Part shown: positions 29,428 to 36,818 of the stretch, piece after piece
Numbering within the stretch: position 1 is the first letter of the stretch
Layout: each line of letters starts with the position of its first letter
Assembly (NCBI RefSeq): GCF_000243255.1
Contig: NZ_CM001436.1
Coordinates: 470,077-534,076 of the forward strand
DNA: 64,000 nt
From: Methanoplanus limicola DSM 2279
GTDB taxonomy: Archaea > Halobacteriota > Methanomicrobia > Methanomicrobiales > Methanomicrobiaceae
Reading direction: 5' to 3'
Made by a program: the position numbers and the translations under genes
Notes under the pieces: model-generated
Database searches by the model: none
Seen by the model: the letters and a program-made list of their open reading frames with translations, nothing else
Told to the model about the DNA's origin: nothing

Positions 29428-30129
29428 ATGACACTTGAGGAAATGGTCGAGATCGCATACCCGCAGCAGCCCCACTGTCCGACAATACTTCTTCTGGACA
29501 CATCAGGCTCAATGAACATCAGTGGCAAAATTGATGACTTAAATTCCGGAATTAAGACCTTCAAAGAAGAGATCGAAAAAGACGACCTCGCAAGAAAGAG
29601 AATTGATCTTGCAGTGGTGGCATTCGGACAGTCTGTGCAGGTGGTTTCAGGCTTTAAGTCAATTGAGGAGTTCGAACCGGAAGTTCTCGTAGCAGACGGC
29701 TTAACCCCTATGGGAAGTGCGATTAAAAAAGCCGTTGAGATGCTTGAGGCAAGAAAGGACGAATACAAAAAGGAGGGTATTGATTATTACCGGCCATGGA
29801 TATTCATGATAACAGACGGTGAACCGACTGACATGAAAGAGGGCGATGAACTCTGGAGCGAAACTCTGAATGCTGTCCACAACGGAGAGAAAGAAGGAAA
29901 ATTCCTCTTCTTCACAGTAGGTGTAGATGAAGCTGATATGGAGACTTTAAAGATGATTGCCCCGCCTAACAGGCCACCGATCAAACTTAAGGAGAACCAC
30001 TTCAATGAGATGTTCATCTGGCTGTCAAGAAGCCAGGCCAAAGTTTCGGCCTCGAAAGTCGGAGAACAGGTAGTCCTTGAAGACCCCTTTGACATGCTCA
30101 GCGGATGGGGAGAAATTCCCACAATATAA
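29428..30129 (+). CDS. TerY-like von Willebrand factor A protein (TerY-P triad)
   Basis: A 233-residue VWA domain with a complete MIDAS: LLLDTSGSMN (DxSxS, residues ~23-32), the Thr in DGLTPMGSA, and the Asp in MITDGEPTD. This places it with TerY-type proteins, which bind metal and are expressed with a PP2C phosphatase and a kinase. The start ATG follows GAGGT. The phosphatase gene begins 6 nt after its stop. In bacteria the triad is linked to tellurite and other chemical-stress systems; here no other ter gene is nearby. Confidence 0.88.
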   Translation: MTLEEMVEIAYPQQPHCPTILLLDTSGSMNISGKIDDLNSGIKTFKEEIEKDDLARKRIDLAVVAFGQSVQVVSGFKSIEEFEPEVLVADGLTPMGSAIKKAVEMLEARKDEYKKEGIDYYRPWIFMITDGEPTDMKEGDELWSETLNAVHNGEKEGKFLFFTVGVDEADMETLKMIAPPNRPPIKLKENHFNEMFIWLSRSQAKVSASKVGEQVVLEDPFDMLSGWGEIPTI

Positions 30130-30135
30130 CCATTT

Positions 30136-30945
30136 ATGAAGAATGAAAATAATATGCTGCCGGAGAATATACCTTCTGTTTTCGGCGCAAGAGTAACCGG
30201 CCCGTCACATATAAAGAAAGGCATACCATGCCAGGACGCTATGGCTTTTGAGGCTATAAGAGAGTCAACAGCAGTAATAGCAGTCTCAGACGGCCTTGGC
30301 AGTGCAAAGTTTTCAGAGATCGGATCTGAAATTGCCGTCAGATCCGCAGGTAAAATGATAACTGATCTCTTCAGGGAGAAGATCGGTGATACAATCCTCG
30401 CCGATATAACCAAGAACAGGGAAATCATTGAAAATTCCTTCCTGCATGCAAGAGAATCCATCCGGAGATATGCAGAAGAGAACGGCCTCAAAACCGGAGA
30501 ACTCGCCTGCACCCTGATGGTTGTGCTTATTGACCGGAATTATGTATCATGCGGACATGTCGGAGACGGCGCCATTGTAGGCATCAGAGAAGGAGAGCCG
30601 ATAATAATCTCAGACCCCGGATATTCGGAGTACATAAACGAGACAACACCGATAACCTCTGAAAGATGGAAAGGTGATCTCAGGATAAAGGAGAACATAC
30701 AGGGCATAGATTCAGTATCTGTATTCACTGACGGATGCCAGAGAGCCGTCCTCACAAAACCGGGCGGGAAATACCAGCCGCACATCCCTTTTTTCAACCC
30801 ATTTAACCGATATATAAGCAGTATAACAGACTTTGATGAGGCATCAGATGACCTGAAAAATCTTCTTTTATCCGGAATGATGACAGAAAACTCCGAGGAT
30901 GACAAGACATTTGTTGTCGGGGTTATAAACCGGAAAAACGATTAA
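30136..30945 (+). CDS. PP2C-type protein phosphatase (TerY-P triad)
   Basis: A 269-residue metal-dependent Ser/Thr phosphatase. Metal-binding acidic residues are seen in CQDAMAFE, AVSDGLGSAKFSEIGSE, CGHVGDGAIVGI and VFTDGCQRAV. It lies between the VWA and kinase genes with gaps of 6 and 12 nt. By analogy with other triads it should reverse the phosphorylation done by the adjoining kinase (established neighbourhood, inferred substrate). No membrane segment is present. Confidence 0.88.
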   Translation: MKNENNMLPENIPSVFGARVTGPSHIKKGIPCQDAMAFEAIRESTAVIAVSDGLGSAKFSEIGSEIAVRSAGKMITDLFREKIGDTILADITKNREIIENSFLHARESIRRYAEENGLKTGELACTLMVVLIDRNYVSCGHVGDGAIVGIREGEPIIISDPGYSEYINETTPITSERWKGDLRIKENIQGIDSVSVFTDGCQRAVLTKPGGKYQPHIPFFNPFNRYISSITDFDEASDDLKNLLLSGMMTENSEDDKTFVVGVINRKND

Positions 30946-30957
30946 AAGGCACCTTAA

Positions 30958-33363
30958 ATGGATAAAACCTTTGTATATGACCGTAAAGGAATAAAATACA
31001 CCCTCATCCGTCCGCCAAGGAAAGGCGGGGAAGGGGAGGTATTCAGATTATCTGAAAATCCTGCCCTCTGTGCAAAGATATACTACAGAAATGTAATTAC
31101 AGAGGAGATCTGCGAGAAGATCACCTCAATGACTGACAACCCTCCCGCCGGCGATCTTACTGAACACAATAAAAAAACCCGTTCAGCATCAATAGCATGG
31201 CCTTTGAGCGAGCTGTATAAATATCCGGGCCGAAAAGATTTCTGCGGCTTTCTGATGCCGGTCATTGACACAGAACTCTTCAGAGAGGCACATATGTATT
31301 ATGACCCTGAAGACCGGAGCAGATATCTGAGTGGATCATTTACATGGAAGTACCTCCTCACAGCAGCCTATAATATCGCCTGCACCGTCTCTGCAATACA
31401 CAAAAGCGGGCACTGCATAGGAGATATGAGCGGCAGCAATATCCTTGTCGCAAGGACGGCTGCGATCTCTGTCATTGACTGCGACTCTTTTCAGATAGAG
31501 AATAAAAAGACCGGCAAAAAATTCTTCACAAAAGTCGCAACCGGAGATTATCTTGCACCTGAACTTATGGGCATAAATTTCCGCACTGAAAATATAGACA
31601 GGTATTATTCAGACCTCTTTTCACTCTCCATTCTCATATTCAAATTCCTGATGAACGGTGTTCATCCCTTTCAGGCGAGAGGGAAAGGAGTTGATGACTA
31701 CCCGACAACCGAGCATAAGATAAAGAACGGAATATTTCCCTACCTGAGAAATGTCAGGCAGATATATCCGCCACTCTATGCCCCGCCTTATGCCATACTC
31801 CCGCCTGAGATAAGGGCACTGTTTGAGAGATGCTTCGTTAAAGGCATAGATAAGCCGTATATGCGCCCGGATGCAGAAGAATGGGTAAAAGTACTGCAGG
31901 ATGAACTTTCCGGGCTGAAACAGTGCTGCAATAACCCAAACCACTGGCACTCCGGATATCTTCAGGTATGTCCCTGGTGTGAAATACTGAAGATTAAAAA
32001 GAAGGAATATTTCCCATATAACGGCCCAAAAGTTGTAAAACCCGAGTCAGGAGCAGTGGAAAACGGAGCCGGCAGAGAGAATCCGGCCGGTGAACCGGCA
32101 GAAAATATTAAAAAAAATCAGGAAAACGCAGCTGAAAAGAGAGAACCTGACAGGGCAAAAGATGAAAAGAGAACATATGCGACAGCAGCAGCAAAAGTTC
32201 CGGTAAGGAAAATACCTTCAGAAACAGGCATTCCTCCGGAAAAAGAAAAGAGAAAAACTGTTACATCCGGAGAAAAAGAAGGCAGGGTAGATTCGGATAT
32301 AAACCCATCATCAGATCCGGAGAATAAAAGTACTCCAATATGCCCCCCTCCAAAAGCGGCAGATAATCCGGTCACAGATAATCCGGTCACAGGTAATCCG
32401 GTCACAGATAATCCAGCCACAGATAATCCGGTCACAGATAATCCGGTCACAGGTAATCCGGTCACAATTACATCCCGGATAAAGAATACAGCCATGCCCG
32501 ATACAGGTAAAAATTCAGCTGCAATAAAAGATAATACAAATACGGCCGGAGATAGCAGACAGATAAAAGATATAAAATCCACATATCCGAAAACACCAGG
32601 GATAAATGCCGGGCCGATTACAAAAACTGAAAAAATAAAAACTGAAAAAAAGAAAGTTGGAAAAACGGAAGTTGGAAAAACGGAAGTTGGAAAAACGGAA
32701 ACTCTCCCTGAAAAGAGAGAGACTGCTCTGTTAAAACCGGAGATCATACCGGGTGCAATTGATCTGAAATTTGACCCGGACTGTGACAATAAGGCAGAGA
32801 TAGAGATAATAAACAGAAATGAAGAACCTCTTGAAATTACAGCAGAACCCCTCCACAGATGGATAATTCTTCCTGAGAAGGGTTTCACTGTCATAGACAG
32901 AAAAATTATTGAGATAACGGTTGACAGGTCACACTTTGAAGGCATAATTCCGGGCATAAAATACAAATCCTGGATAAGATTCAAAACACCGGCGGGACCT
33001 GAAAGGACTGAAATAAATGTCTCATTGCAGAAAAAACCCTTGCTGACCATAATTACGGATAAGAGGCTCATCTTCAGGGGCATTGAAAAGCCGGAGAAAT
33101 ACACTTCAGACGACAGTCAGAAGGAATATGCACAGAATATTGAGATAATCAATTCGGGAGAGAGAACACTTAAAGGTGAGATAACATCCGATAAAAACTG
33201 GATTGCCGCAGAACCGGAGAGTTTCTCCATAAAAGGAAAGCAGGAGATAAATATCACCATAATTCCGGAACATATGAGCGATAAAGCCATCCAGACCGGA
33301 AAAATAGCTGTAATATCAAACGGCGGCAGATGTGAGATACAGGTGATTGCATCACTGAGATGA
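30958..33363 (+). CDS. TerY-P-type protein kinase with zinc-ribbon, repeat linker and C-terminal beta-sandwich domains
   Basis: An 801-residue protein. Residues ~10-320 form a kinase domain: glycine loop GGEGEVFRL, ATP lysine in CAKIYY, catalytic-loop HKSGHCIGDMSGSNILV and the metal-binding DCDSFQI in place of DFG. Next comes a Cys/His cluster CCNNPNHWHSGYLQVCPWCE (~321-341) that may bind zinc. A low-complexity charged linker (~345-590) includes seven DNPVT-like and three VGKTE pentapeptides encoded by 15-nt tandem repeats. The last ~200 residues look like two BACON/Ig-like beta-sandwiches (WIILPEKGFTV, WIAAEPESFSI). The kinase ends the VWA-PP2C-kinase operon. Confidence 0.85.
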   Translation: MDKTFVYDRKGIKYTLIRPPRKGGEGEVFRLSENPALCAKIYYRNVITEEICEKITSMTDNPPAGDLTEHNKKTRSASIAWPLSELYKYPGRKDFCGFLMPVIDTELFREAHMYYDPEDRSRYLSGSFTWKYLLTAAYNIACTVSAIHKSGHCIGDMSGSNILVARTAAISVIDCDSFQIENKKTGKKFFTKVATGDYLAPELMGINFRTENIDRYYSDLFSLSILIFKFLMNGVHPFQARGKGVDDYPTTEHKIKNGIFPYLRNVRQIYPPLYAPPYAILPPEIRALFERCFVKGIDKPYMRPDAEEWVKVLQDELSGLKQCCNNPNHWHSGYLQVCPWCEILKIKKKEYFPYNGPKVVKPESGAVENGAGRENPAGEPAENIKKNQENAAEKREPDRAKDEKRTYATAAAKVPVRKIPSETGIPPEKEKRKTVTSGEKEGRVDSDINPSSDPENKSTPICPPPKAADNPVTDNPVTGNPVTDNPATDNPVTDNPVTGNPVTITSRIKNTAMPDTGKNSAAIKDNTNTAGDSRQIKDIKSTYPKTPGINAGPITKTEKIKTEKKKVGKTEVGKTEVGKTETLPEKRETALLKPEIIPGAIDLKFDPDCDNKAEIEIINRNEEPLEITAEPLHRWIILPEKGFTVIDRKIIEITVDRSHFEGIIPGIKYKSWIRFKTPAGPERTEINVSLQKKPLLTIITDKRLIFRGIEKPEKYTSDDSQKEYAQNIEIINSGERTLKGEITSDKNWIAAEPESFSIKGKQEINITIIPEHMSDKAIQTGKIAVISNGGRCEIQVIASLR
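32361..32465 (+). repeat. In-frame 15-nt tandem repeat, 7 units
   Basis: Seven copies of AGATAATCCGGTCAC-like units encode (D/G)NP(V/A)T pentapeptides inside the linker of the kinase gene. Differences between units are single bases, so the array is young and likely variable in number between strains. Confidence 0.9.
32656..32700 (+). repeat. In-frame 15-nt tandem repeat, 3 units
   Basis: Three identical copies of GTTGGAAAAACGGAA encode VGKTE in the same kinase linker, about 190 nt after the first array. Keeping the period a multiple of three preserves the frame. Confidence 0.9.
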
Positions 33364-34616: not shown

Positions 34617-35036
34617 TCAGCCATTGACCTTTTTATTCAGCATCAGGACATTCTCAACGCCATCCCTTGTATATATCATATCGTCAGAGAACTCCTTTAC
34701 AAGATGAACACCAAGCCCGCCTATATCCCTCTCTTCAGCCGGAGAACCGGTATCAGGCACAGGGGCATCCTTAAGCGGGTTAAAAACCCGCCCCCTGTCA
34801 CGGAACTCCATCTCAATTACCTCACCATTGAAGGTGCACCTGAATGAGAAAAAACCGCCCAGAATATAACCGTGGCTGACAATATTCTGGGTAATCTCCT
34901 CAAAGATAAGCTCTGCCCCCATAGATATCTTTTCAGGCACCAGAAGCATCAGAAGATAATCTGAAAAAGCCTCTGAAAGAGTGGACAGTTTATCCTCTGT
35001 CAGGGAATCCGTCCTGTAATAAAAAATTCTGCTCAT
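34617..35036 (-). CDS. RsbW-like anti-sigma-type ATP-binding (HATPase) protein
   Basis: A 139-residue GHKL ATPase of the serine-kinase/anti-sigma type: the N-box FEEITQNIVSHGY (~residue 67), the G1-like EFRDRGRVFNPL and the G2-like GGLGVHLVKEFSDDMIY are visible. In bacteria RsbW binds and phosphorylates an STAS partner and sequesters a sigma factor. Archaea have no sigma factor, so its released target is unknown. It is the last gene of a minus-strand set: STAS, phosphatase, HATPase (63 nt after the phosphatase stop). Confidence 0.87.
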   Translation of the reverse strand: MSRIFYYRTDSLTEDKLSTLSEAFSDYLLMLLVPEKISMGAELIFEEITQNIVSHGYILGGFFSFRCTFNGEVIEMEFRDRGRVFNPLKDAPVPDTGSPAEERDIGGLGVHLVKEFSDDMIYTRDGVENVLMLNKKVNG

Positions 35037-35099
35037 ATCATATCCACCTCTTGATTATATTTTTATTATTGCAATGATACACTGTATTTCCCGGATATC

Positions 35100-36461
35100 T
35101 TATAACACCTTCAGAATTACAAGCGTGATATCATCAAACTGTAATTCACCGGAAGAATGACTGCTGACAGATTCAGTTATTGAACCTGCAATCCTCTCCG
35201 GAGATTCATATCTGTTATTTAGAATGACCTCTTTTAACCTTTCCTCTCCAAACTCTTCATCATCACCGTTTATTGCCTCGGTAATGCCATCCGTAAAGTA
35301 AACTATCAGGTCTCCGGATGAGACATTAACCTCACCTGTGCCATACTCATTATCCTCAATAACACCAAGAGCCATCCCGGTCGGGTTGAGACGCAGGAAT
35401 TCATCCCCGGAAGCTTTAAGGAGAAAAGGAGGGCAGTGGCCGGCATTTGCATAAACAATCCTGCCGGAACCGGGGTCAACAACCGAGTAGCAGAGCGTCA
35501 CAAACATGCCGGACTCAGACTCACCTGAGATCATATTATTGGCACTCTCCAAAGCCCGCTTAACTGACCTGTGCCACCCTGCGCTTGCGTGCATAAGGGT
35601 CTTTGAGAGCATCATGAACAATGCCGCAGGCACACCCTTACCGGAAACGTCAGCGATTACAATGCCGGTACTGCCGCCGGCGCAGTCCACAAAGTCATAG
35701 AAATCCCCGCCTACCTCCTTTGCAGGAGTGTTCATGGCATAGAGGCTGAATCCCGGAATATCAGGCATCTTTTTGGGGAGGAAATCATTCTGGATCTCAG
35801 AGGCTATGTCAAGTTCGGCCTTATTCCTCGCAACCTCGGACCTGTAAAGATTCCTCTCCCCTTCAGTTTTTCTCTCAGTAAGGATATTACTGACAAGATA
35901 CGAGAAGATGAACATACCTATTGCATTCGCAAGGATCATGGGTAGTGCCGCACGGCTTACAATCTCATACGCAACCTCAGGCGGACTTACAAGAAGGATG
36001 GTGATCAGCATATGAAAAGACTCCATAGCTACAGCAAAGGCAACCGCAATTTTAACCCCGGCAAAACGATCTTTAAGGAGGATATACAAAATTCCGGCAA
36101 AAACTCCGCTTAAGACTGTCGCAAGGCTGCATGGCAGGCAGGTCGGCCCGCCCATTGTAAACCTCTGCACACCACCGATAATACCCGCGCCAATACCGAC
36201 ATATGGTCCGCAGAAGAGACCGGCGGCCATCGGACCGAGATCACGGACATTCAGCGGTGCACCGAGCACCTCAACGCCGCCAAGGGTGCCGTAAACAGAC
36301 AGCAGCCCGAAGAAGATAATAAGAACAGTCCGGTTCTTCCACGTAAACCTTCTCTCAAGAGCCTCAGTAAACCAGTGCGAACGGGTTACAAAGACAGAGA
36401 AAACTACAATTACACATATAAGACCAAAAAGGTCAAGAAACAGACTCAGTTCTCCGGCCAT
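35100..36461 (-). CDS. RsbU/SpoIIE-type PP2C phosphatase with LytS-like membrane sensor
   Basis: The N-terminal ~200 residues form a 5TM-5TMR_LYT-like sensor (VRDLGPMAAGLFCGPYVGIG and GVQRFTMGGPTCLPCSLATV), followed by a short coiled segment and a SpoIIE phosphatase (~215-453): PAKEVGGDFYDFVD, IVIADVSGKGVPAALFM, VYFTDGITEAING and DDITLVILKVL. It would dephosphorylate the STAS partner in answer to a membrane signal. Its start is 21 nt after the STAS gene. At 453 aa both domains are complete. Confidence 0.9.
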   Translation of the reverse strand: MAGELSLFLDLFGLICVIVVFSVFVTRSHWFTEALERRFTWKNRTVLIIFFGLLSVYGTLGGVEVLGAPLNVRDLGPMAAGLFCGPYVGIGAGIIGGVQRFTMGGPTCLPCSLATVLSGVFAGILYILLKDRFAGVKIAVAFAVAMESFHMLITILLVSPPEVAYEIVSRAALPMILANAIGMFIFSYLVSNILTERKTEGERNLYRSEVARNKAELDIASEIQNDFLPKKMPDIPGFSLYAMNTPAKEVGGDFYDFVDCAGGSTGIVIADVSGKGVPAALFMMLSKTLMHASAGWHRSVKRALESANNMISGESESGMFVTLCYSVVDPGSGRIVYANAGHCPPFLLKASGDEFLRLNPTGMALGVIEDNEYGTGEVNVSSGDLIVYFTDGITEAINGDDEEFGEERLKEVILNNRYESPERIAGSITESVSSHSSGELQFDDITLVILKVL

Positions 36462-36482
36462 AAAAAAAATTTACATGCTGAA

Positions 36483-36818
36483 TTATTCAAATTTCAGCAG
36501 GGCCTCTTTATCAGAATTACAGATATCAAATATACTGTCAAAACCTGATATCCTGAAGACATCACTTACAAAAGGCTTCAGACCCGACAGCTTTATCTCT
36601 CCGCCGAAAGGTTTTACCTTTTTTAACGCTGCAAGAAGAACTCTCAGCCCTGAACTGCTGATATAATCCACACCTTCCATATTCACAATAAATTTGTCAG
36701 AACCTGCCTCAATAAGAGATTTAAGCTTATCATCAAGGAGGGAGGAGTTTCTGGCATCAATACGGCCATTTACCAGAATAATATTTACTGAGCCGGATAT
36801 TTTATTTTCAATCTCCAT
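36483..36818 (-). CDS. STAS-domain anti-sigma-factor-antagonist-like protein (RsbV/SpoIIAA type)
   Basis: A 111-residue single STAS domain, with the phospho-acceptor serine region VDYISSSGLRVLLAALKKV and the usual start SGSVNIILVNGRIDARNS. It is the first gene of the set with the phosphatase and HATPase genes. In partner switching it is phosphorylated by the HATPase and dephosphorylated by the SpoIIE-type phosphatase. All three parts needed for a switch are present and look intact. Confidence 0.9.
   Translation of the reverse strand: MEIENKISGSVNIILVNGRIDARNSSLLDDKLKSLIEAGSDKFIVNMEGVDYISSSGLRVLLAALKKVKPFGGEIKLSGLKPFVSDVFRISGFDSIFDICNSDKEALLKFE

Follow-up and report, generated by a model that had tools for sequence, protein, structure and literature searches.

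We analyzed three adjacent genes of the archaeon Methanoplanus limicola DSM 2279, which code for a VWA-domain protein, a PP2C-type phosphatase and a Ser/Thr kinase and lie in a 64,000-nucleotide stretch of its genome (contig NZ_CM001436.1, positions 470,077 to 534,076), hereafter called the window, whose own numbering is used below. The three genes are all on the + strand, with gaps of 6 nucleotides between the VWA and the PP2C genes and of 12 nucleotides between the PP2C and the kinase genes. The genes, and the regions recognized within the kinase, are the following:

29428..30129, +, VWA gene, YegL-like, 233 aa (Pfam VWA, E 1.7e-10)
30136..30945, +, PP2C gene, PphC/YegK-like, 269 aa (Pfam PP2C_2, E 2.1e-41)
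30958..33363, +, Ser/Thr kinase gene, YegI-like, 801 aa (Pfam Pkinase, E 2.6e-9)
30985..31911, +, kinase domain, about residues 10-318 (alignments with YegI and the family, AlphaFold model, Foldseek kinase matches)
31912..32025, +, zinc ribbon C323-x5-H329-x8-C338-PW-C341 (invariant in 16 family members)
32026..32727, +, disordered repeat-rich linker, about residues 357-590 (predicted local distance difference test score, pLDDT, of about 30 in the AlphaFold model)
32737..33027, +, PapD-like beta-sandwich 1, about residues 594-690 (predicted model, pLDDT about 90)
33034..33360, +, PapD-like beta-sandwich 2, about residues 693-801 (predicted model, pLDDT about 90)

The three open reading frames, their Pfam matches, the short distances between them and the intact motifs of their products bear out the original prediction of a complete, closely spaced triad. 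Indeed, the VWA protein possesses a complete metal ion-dependent adhesion site (MIDAS; DxSxS...T...D), whose residues D24-x-S26-x-S28, T93 and D130 are invariant across six divergent homologues; the metal-binding residues of the phosphatase (D34, D52-G53, G143-D144-G145, D199-G200 and D255-D256) are invariant in the alignment with Escherichia coli PphC; and the kinase has the catalytic set K40, D156 (the catalytic Asp), N161 and D176 (the metal-binding Asp), which is kept in 16 out of 16 aligned family kinases. A GAGG sequence, read directly from the DNA, stands 8 nucleotides upstream of the ATG of the VWA gene, and a motif search detected no exact TTTAWATA box near the operon. A promoter scan was based on the bacterial consensus, and its result was set aside.

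Relationship to YegL-PphC-YegI and to ter operons

The organization of the locus is that of E. coli K-12 yegL-pphC-yegI, where the gene order is also VWA-PP2C-kinase and where yegJ intervenes between pphC and yegI. The degree of identity with the E. coli proteins is 51% for the VWA protein and YegL, 29% for the phosphatase and PphC, and about 23% overall for the kinase and YegI. The alignment of the two kinases extends through the zinc ribbon, and both share the Lys and the Asp of the active site, a DSF motif standing in place of DFG, and the C-x5-H-x8-CPWC pattern. The Cys/His cluster (C323, H329, C338 and C341) was thus correctly recognized in the original prediction, but its placement outside the minimal triad does not hold: since the same ribbon is found in YegI and its fusion to the kinase is a known feature of TerY-P kinases (PMC11090510), it is the zinc ribbon normally found in such kinases and not a special addition. 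A sequence search of the PDB with the window kinase returned generic kinases only.

Beyond the ribbon the two kinases differ. YegI possesses transmembrane (TM) segments after the ribbon (a two-TM arrangement) and a helix-hairpin-helix (HhH) tail, whereas in the window kinase no stretch of 19 residues rises above 1.6 on the Kyte-Doolittle scale and no HhH profile gives a match; the protein ends with the linker and the two PapD-like sandwiches. The triad therefore shares with the YegL-PphC-YegI system the gene order, a VWA protein of YegL grade and the DSF and ribbon motifs, and lacks its TM and HhH tail, which we treated as a variable trait, several relatives of the same triad also being devoid of HhH. 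By these sequence comparisons, the triad is the archaeal counterpart of the YegL/PphC/YegI branch, whose homologues occur across many bacterial phyla and in some archaea. YegI autophosphorylates on serine and PphC removes the phosphate, as cited in PMC13232886; the literature covered gives no stimulus or physiological substrate for YegL-PphC-YegI homologues.

As regards the name TerY-P given to the triad in the original prediction, it is appropriate in the broad sense, that is, a VWA protein, a PP2C phosphatase and a Ser/Thr kinase with the ribbon fused C-terminally to the kinase, all of which are found here. It is not appropriate in the strict sense of a ter-operon TerY, which we rejected: the VWA protein, 51% identical to YegL, is only about 27% identical to the VWA proteins of plasmid ter operons, and a search of the whole genome (3.2 Mb) revealed no gene of the TerD or TerC families. 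In the plasmid ter locus of NZ_CP128619.1, the VWA, PP2C and kinase genes are grouped as they are in the window, but the VWA gene has TerW, TerD and a TerY-C protein as its neighbours, and the annotation of the kinase is InaA-like. The statement that no tellurite genes accompany the triad was accordingly right; the conclusion drawn from it, that the triad may monitor another stress, does not follow, since the YegL/PphC/YegI branch normally lacks ter genes (none lies beside E. coli yegLKI), so that their absence is by itself uninformative on stress. The idea that the triad is a metal or tellurite stress module such as those of the ter operons, to which the MIDAS site, the zinc ribbon and the description of the TerY-P triad as a hypothesised metal-sensing switch (PMC11090510) might point, appears very improbable in a genome without TerD and TerC and with so divergent a VWA protein.

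The C-terminal sandwiches and the kinase tail

The prediction of the structure of the C-terminal region, which had been proposed as a check, returned two beta-sandwiches with high confidence (mean pLDDT 90.2 for the tandem, modelled alone with 16 relatives). Hence, the two sandwiches that had been suspected do exist; their assignment to the BACON/Ig-like type was not maintained, the Pfam BACON match (E 0.0044, 17.4 bits) falling below the curated cut-off of 25. Each sandwich matches PapD-like folds with Z 10.5-12.6 over 86-98 residues, an rmsd (root-mean-square deviation) of about 2 and Foldseek E values down to 1e-12, the matches being the N-domains of fimbrial chaperones, the MSP domain of SCS2 and domains of HYDIN; for sandwich 1, the similarity to PapD-type chaperone domains, SCS2 MSP and HYDIN reaches Z about 11-12 over 94-98 residues. 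The pair also matches the SPD-2 domain of CEP192, and sandwich 2 has a Pfam Cep192_D6 match (E 2.1e-7) under the cut-off. At the sequence level, the sandwich profile gave only weak matches in the PDB, the best being 2qsv (E 0.011). The predicted models thus place the sandwiches closer to PapD-like/ASH/MSP (HYDIN-type) folds than to BACON. CEP192, HYDIN and SCS2 share this fold with both sandwiches, but they are eukaryotic cytoskeletal or membrane-contact proteins with about 10-15% identity, and a common function is not implied. Since the kinase has no TM or other membrane segment, the sandwiches are presumably cytoplasmic, on the same side as the kinase domain, and it is plausible that they bind a target.

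The repeat-rich linker that precedes them had also been noticed beforehand, and it is indeed predicted to be disordered from residue 360 to residue 588 and contains tandem repeats of a 15-bp unit (seven copies at 32360-32466), with another repeat at 32646-32700. However, the linker is conserved neither in length nor in sequence (31% identity to the same-genus copy), and the repeats were ruled out as a functional feature, the same-genus copy not keeping them.

The kinase was detected in 21 of the 27 genomes of the same family, with weaker matches in a few genomes of the order, and wherever the locus is complete in these relatives the order is VWA-PP2C-kinase. In a quick tree of 79 kinase domains, several deep forks of which are unresolved, the kinases with C-terminal sandwiches form one clade (support 99), which was seen in the family of M. 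limicola only and whose named members all belong to the Methanomicrobiaceae; the clade includes a sequence labelled "other" (L069), whose frame is split and whose sandwich is in the next reading frame. The phyletic search that had been suggested therefore did find the same fusion, and found it to be the standard architecture of the family and not the elaboration of a single genome. Within the family, a kinase has either one sandwich or two, sandwich 2 always being the one retained, and no further tandem-sandwich copy was found in the genome of M. limicola itself. The C-terminal sandwich tail on a YegI-type core is thus real and family-wide and, apparently, undescribed in the open-licence literature.

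The closest kinases outside the family are 42-49% identical and are embedded in VWA-PP2C-kinase loci. In the tree, those of Nitrospirota and Candidatus Aquicultor are the nearest to the sandwich clade, and the Methanospirillaceae-type kinases are further out. None of the former two has a sandwich: the Candidatus Aquicultor kinases have a hydrophobic C-terminal tail and the Nitrospirota ones an extra Cys-rich motif at the C-terminus. The Methanospirillaceae-type kinases have one to three sandwiches at the N-terminus and, in some cases, C-terminal HEAT repeats as well. The YegI-type triads of Bacteroidota, Planctomycetota, Pseudomonadota, Verrucomicrobiota and Methanoregula share with the window the genes, their order and the ribbon, but their kinases have an HhH tail and no sandwiches and, in those tested, TM segments after the ribbon. 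The tail therefore differs among relatives (HhH, HEAT repeats, WD40 by annotation in Trichormus, or sandwiches) on one conserved core, which fits the idea of a modular recognition slot; because it is the variable slot of the kinase family, we take it as the specificity element, and the comparison suggests that the tail picks the client.

Some further architectures were observed. Two genomes of the same order (L145 502-3918, L146 28-3363) have triad kinases in which the N-terminus bears as many as three sandwiches and the kinase domain is present twice in tandem, the second copy apparently degenerate, and two relatives of the window kinase (L070 4653-8339, L144 457-3402) combine an N-terminal sandwich with C-terminal HEAT repeats. 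In the same order, a second, distant type of triad is followed by a gene (L049 10066-10902, L050 6811-8295, L052 6619-8148) in which an N-terminal region with the motif RCEGLLRDTC is joined to HEAT repeats or to a beta-helix. The WD-40 annotation concerns the kinase of a triad on a plasmid of the cyanobacterium Trichormus (L174 2523-6040).

Selective constraint and a proposed phosphorylation switch

The comparison with the same-genus relative yielded low ratios of non-synonymous to synonymous substitution rates (dN/dS) for the VWA gene (0.08), the PP2C gene (0.10), the kinase (0.075) and the ribbon (0.05); the values were higher in sandwich 1 (0.20) and sandwich 2 (0.63), and also in the linker (0.38), which aligns poorly. 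Read from the sequence, then, the three genes are intact, co-inherited and under purifying selection, with a domain architecture in which the TM/HhH tail has been replaced.

Members of the family without the VWA and PP2C genes represent a natural experiment on the interdependence of the three parts. Five genomes with the kinase (G010, G011, G021, G025 and G027), mostly drafts or metagenome bins, have a missing or truncated VWA gene and a PP2C gene reduced to a C-terminal (3') stub directly before the kinase; the corresponding loci are L168, L169, L170, L171 and L045, and the active site is decayed in L168 and L170. In the tree sisters G011 and G027, the ATP-binding lysine K40 is changed to Arg and the metal-binding D176 to Glu, and the G027 kinase additionally lacks the catalytic Asp and has a split reading frame. 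In G011, the sandwich remains constrained, at a pairwise dN/dS of 0.07-0.13. The loss of K40 and D176 in a lineage that has lost VWA and PP2C supports the mutual dependence of the three genes.

On the whole, we suggest, with a probability of roughly 0.62, that the three-gene operon works as a soluble switch of the YegL-PphC-YegI type, based on reversible Ser/Thr phosphorylation, and that its sandwiches hold a client; a housekeeping-type switch is the best reading of the data. According to this model, the kinase would autophosphorylate and then phosphorylate one or a few client proteins, and the PP2C phosphatase would strip off the phosphates; the first of these reactions and its reversal are proposed by analogy with YegI and PphC. 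The VWA protein, via the metal of its MIDAS, might hold the two enzymes together or act on them as a gate that responds to a divalent metal or to a protein ligand. The flexible linker and the one or two cytoplasmic sandwiches would replace the membrane anchor and the HhH of YegI, keeping the client near the kinase, and the sandwiches, as docking sites, might set the specificity. If so, the soluble sandwiches of methanogens would offer a route to the client.

Several observations weigh against this model. The canonical DFG is missing from the kinase; the fold of the sandwiches does not reveal their ligand; and the dN/dS of sandwich 2 fits either weak constraint or a changing specificity, its 105 codons being undecisive. 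Moreover, the mutual dependence is backed by one lineage only: the active sites of G010 and G021 look intact, and G025 has no visible catalytic loss in the part seen.

Alternative readings and the genomic neighbourhood

A bolder extension of the switch, to which we give a low probability, is that the triads of methanogens form a signalling class of their own. In it, one specific client in the cytoplasm (perhaps an assembly or filament protein, by analogy with the ASH domains of eukaryotes) would be recruited by PapD-like sandwiches at either end of a YegI-type kinase, so that the phospho-switch would be retargeted by the exchange of recognition domains.

A different possibility is a TerY-P-type anti-phage defence, in which infection would trigger a phosphorylation that halts growth or the virus. 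TerY-P modules serve as stand-alone defence or occur in CoCoNuT loci (PMC11090510, PMC7699616), and a variant with an OB-fold is reported to be active against T7-like phages. These modules share with the window the triad, in which the kinase is joined to a zinc ribbon or an OB-fold (Gao 2020, PMC11090510), but they occur in a mobile or defence context, and the open-licence papers describe no sandwiches in them. The PADLOC models matched the window proteins weakly: TerY over only part of the VWA protein (E 8.3e-6), and PD-T4-6/mads_6, which are generic kinase models, with the kinase (up to 1.5e-7); none matched the phosphatase. Of the E. coli proteins, YegL and PphC gave no hit to the PADLOC models, and the only models matched by YegI were generic kinase ones. 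Furthermore, the chromosomal position and the flanks are conserved across the genera of the family, the genes for an endonuclease/LTD protein and for a CxxCxxCC protein being notable among the neighbours; the triad is therefore inherited as part of the chromosome and not as a mobile island. The kinase clade follows the family, no defence genes are among the immediate neighbours, and phage and plasmid records hold distant relatives only. In view of the conserved synteny, the vertical inheritance and the weakness of the PADLOC matches, defence is less likely than the switch, and we judge it unlikely.

The triad is adjoined by genes that might suggest another role:

34617-36818, -, genes for a HATPase (anti-sigma-like), a SpoIIE-type phosphatase with 5TMR, and a STAS protein (Pfam)

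This is a partner-switching set in an archaeon, syntenic in a few genomes of the family. The triad might feed these genes, adding a further input to their stress pathway, and they do adjoin it in the window, in its genus and in parts of two other genera. Nevertheless, these genes run in the opposite direction to the triad, and the genera g3, g4 and g6 keep the triad but do not have them next to it, so that it travels independently of them. The connection seems improbable.

Still less credit can be given to the idea that the kinase is mainly a scaffold (a pseudokinase) and that the sandwiches carry the function. It would account for the replacement of DFG by DSF and for G011, where the sandwich is under purifying selection (pairwise dN/dS 0.07-0.13) despite the decayed active site of the kinase; however, the catalytic residues are kept in all the aligned family members, the kinase domain is itself strongly constrained, and YegI, with the same motif, autophosphorylates.

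In eight loci (L034, L035, L038, L039, L040, L041, L044 and L046), the kinase gene is directly followed, on the same strand, by a conserved gene whose product of about 165 aa has a hydrophobic, signal-like stretch at its N-terminus and matches no Pfam family; this gene does not lie beside the window triad. Finally, the second PP2C of the genome (L002), rejected as a triad member, is outside any triad: at G000:C1:3177932-3182056 it lies close to a canonical Hanks kinase and to a gene with what appears to be an FHA-like region at its end.

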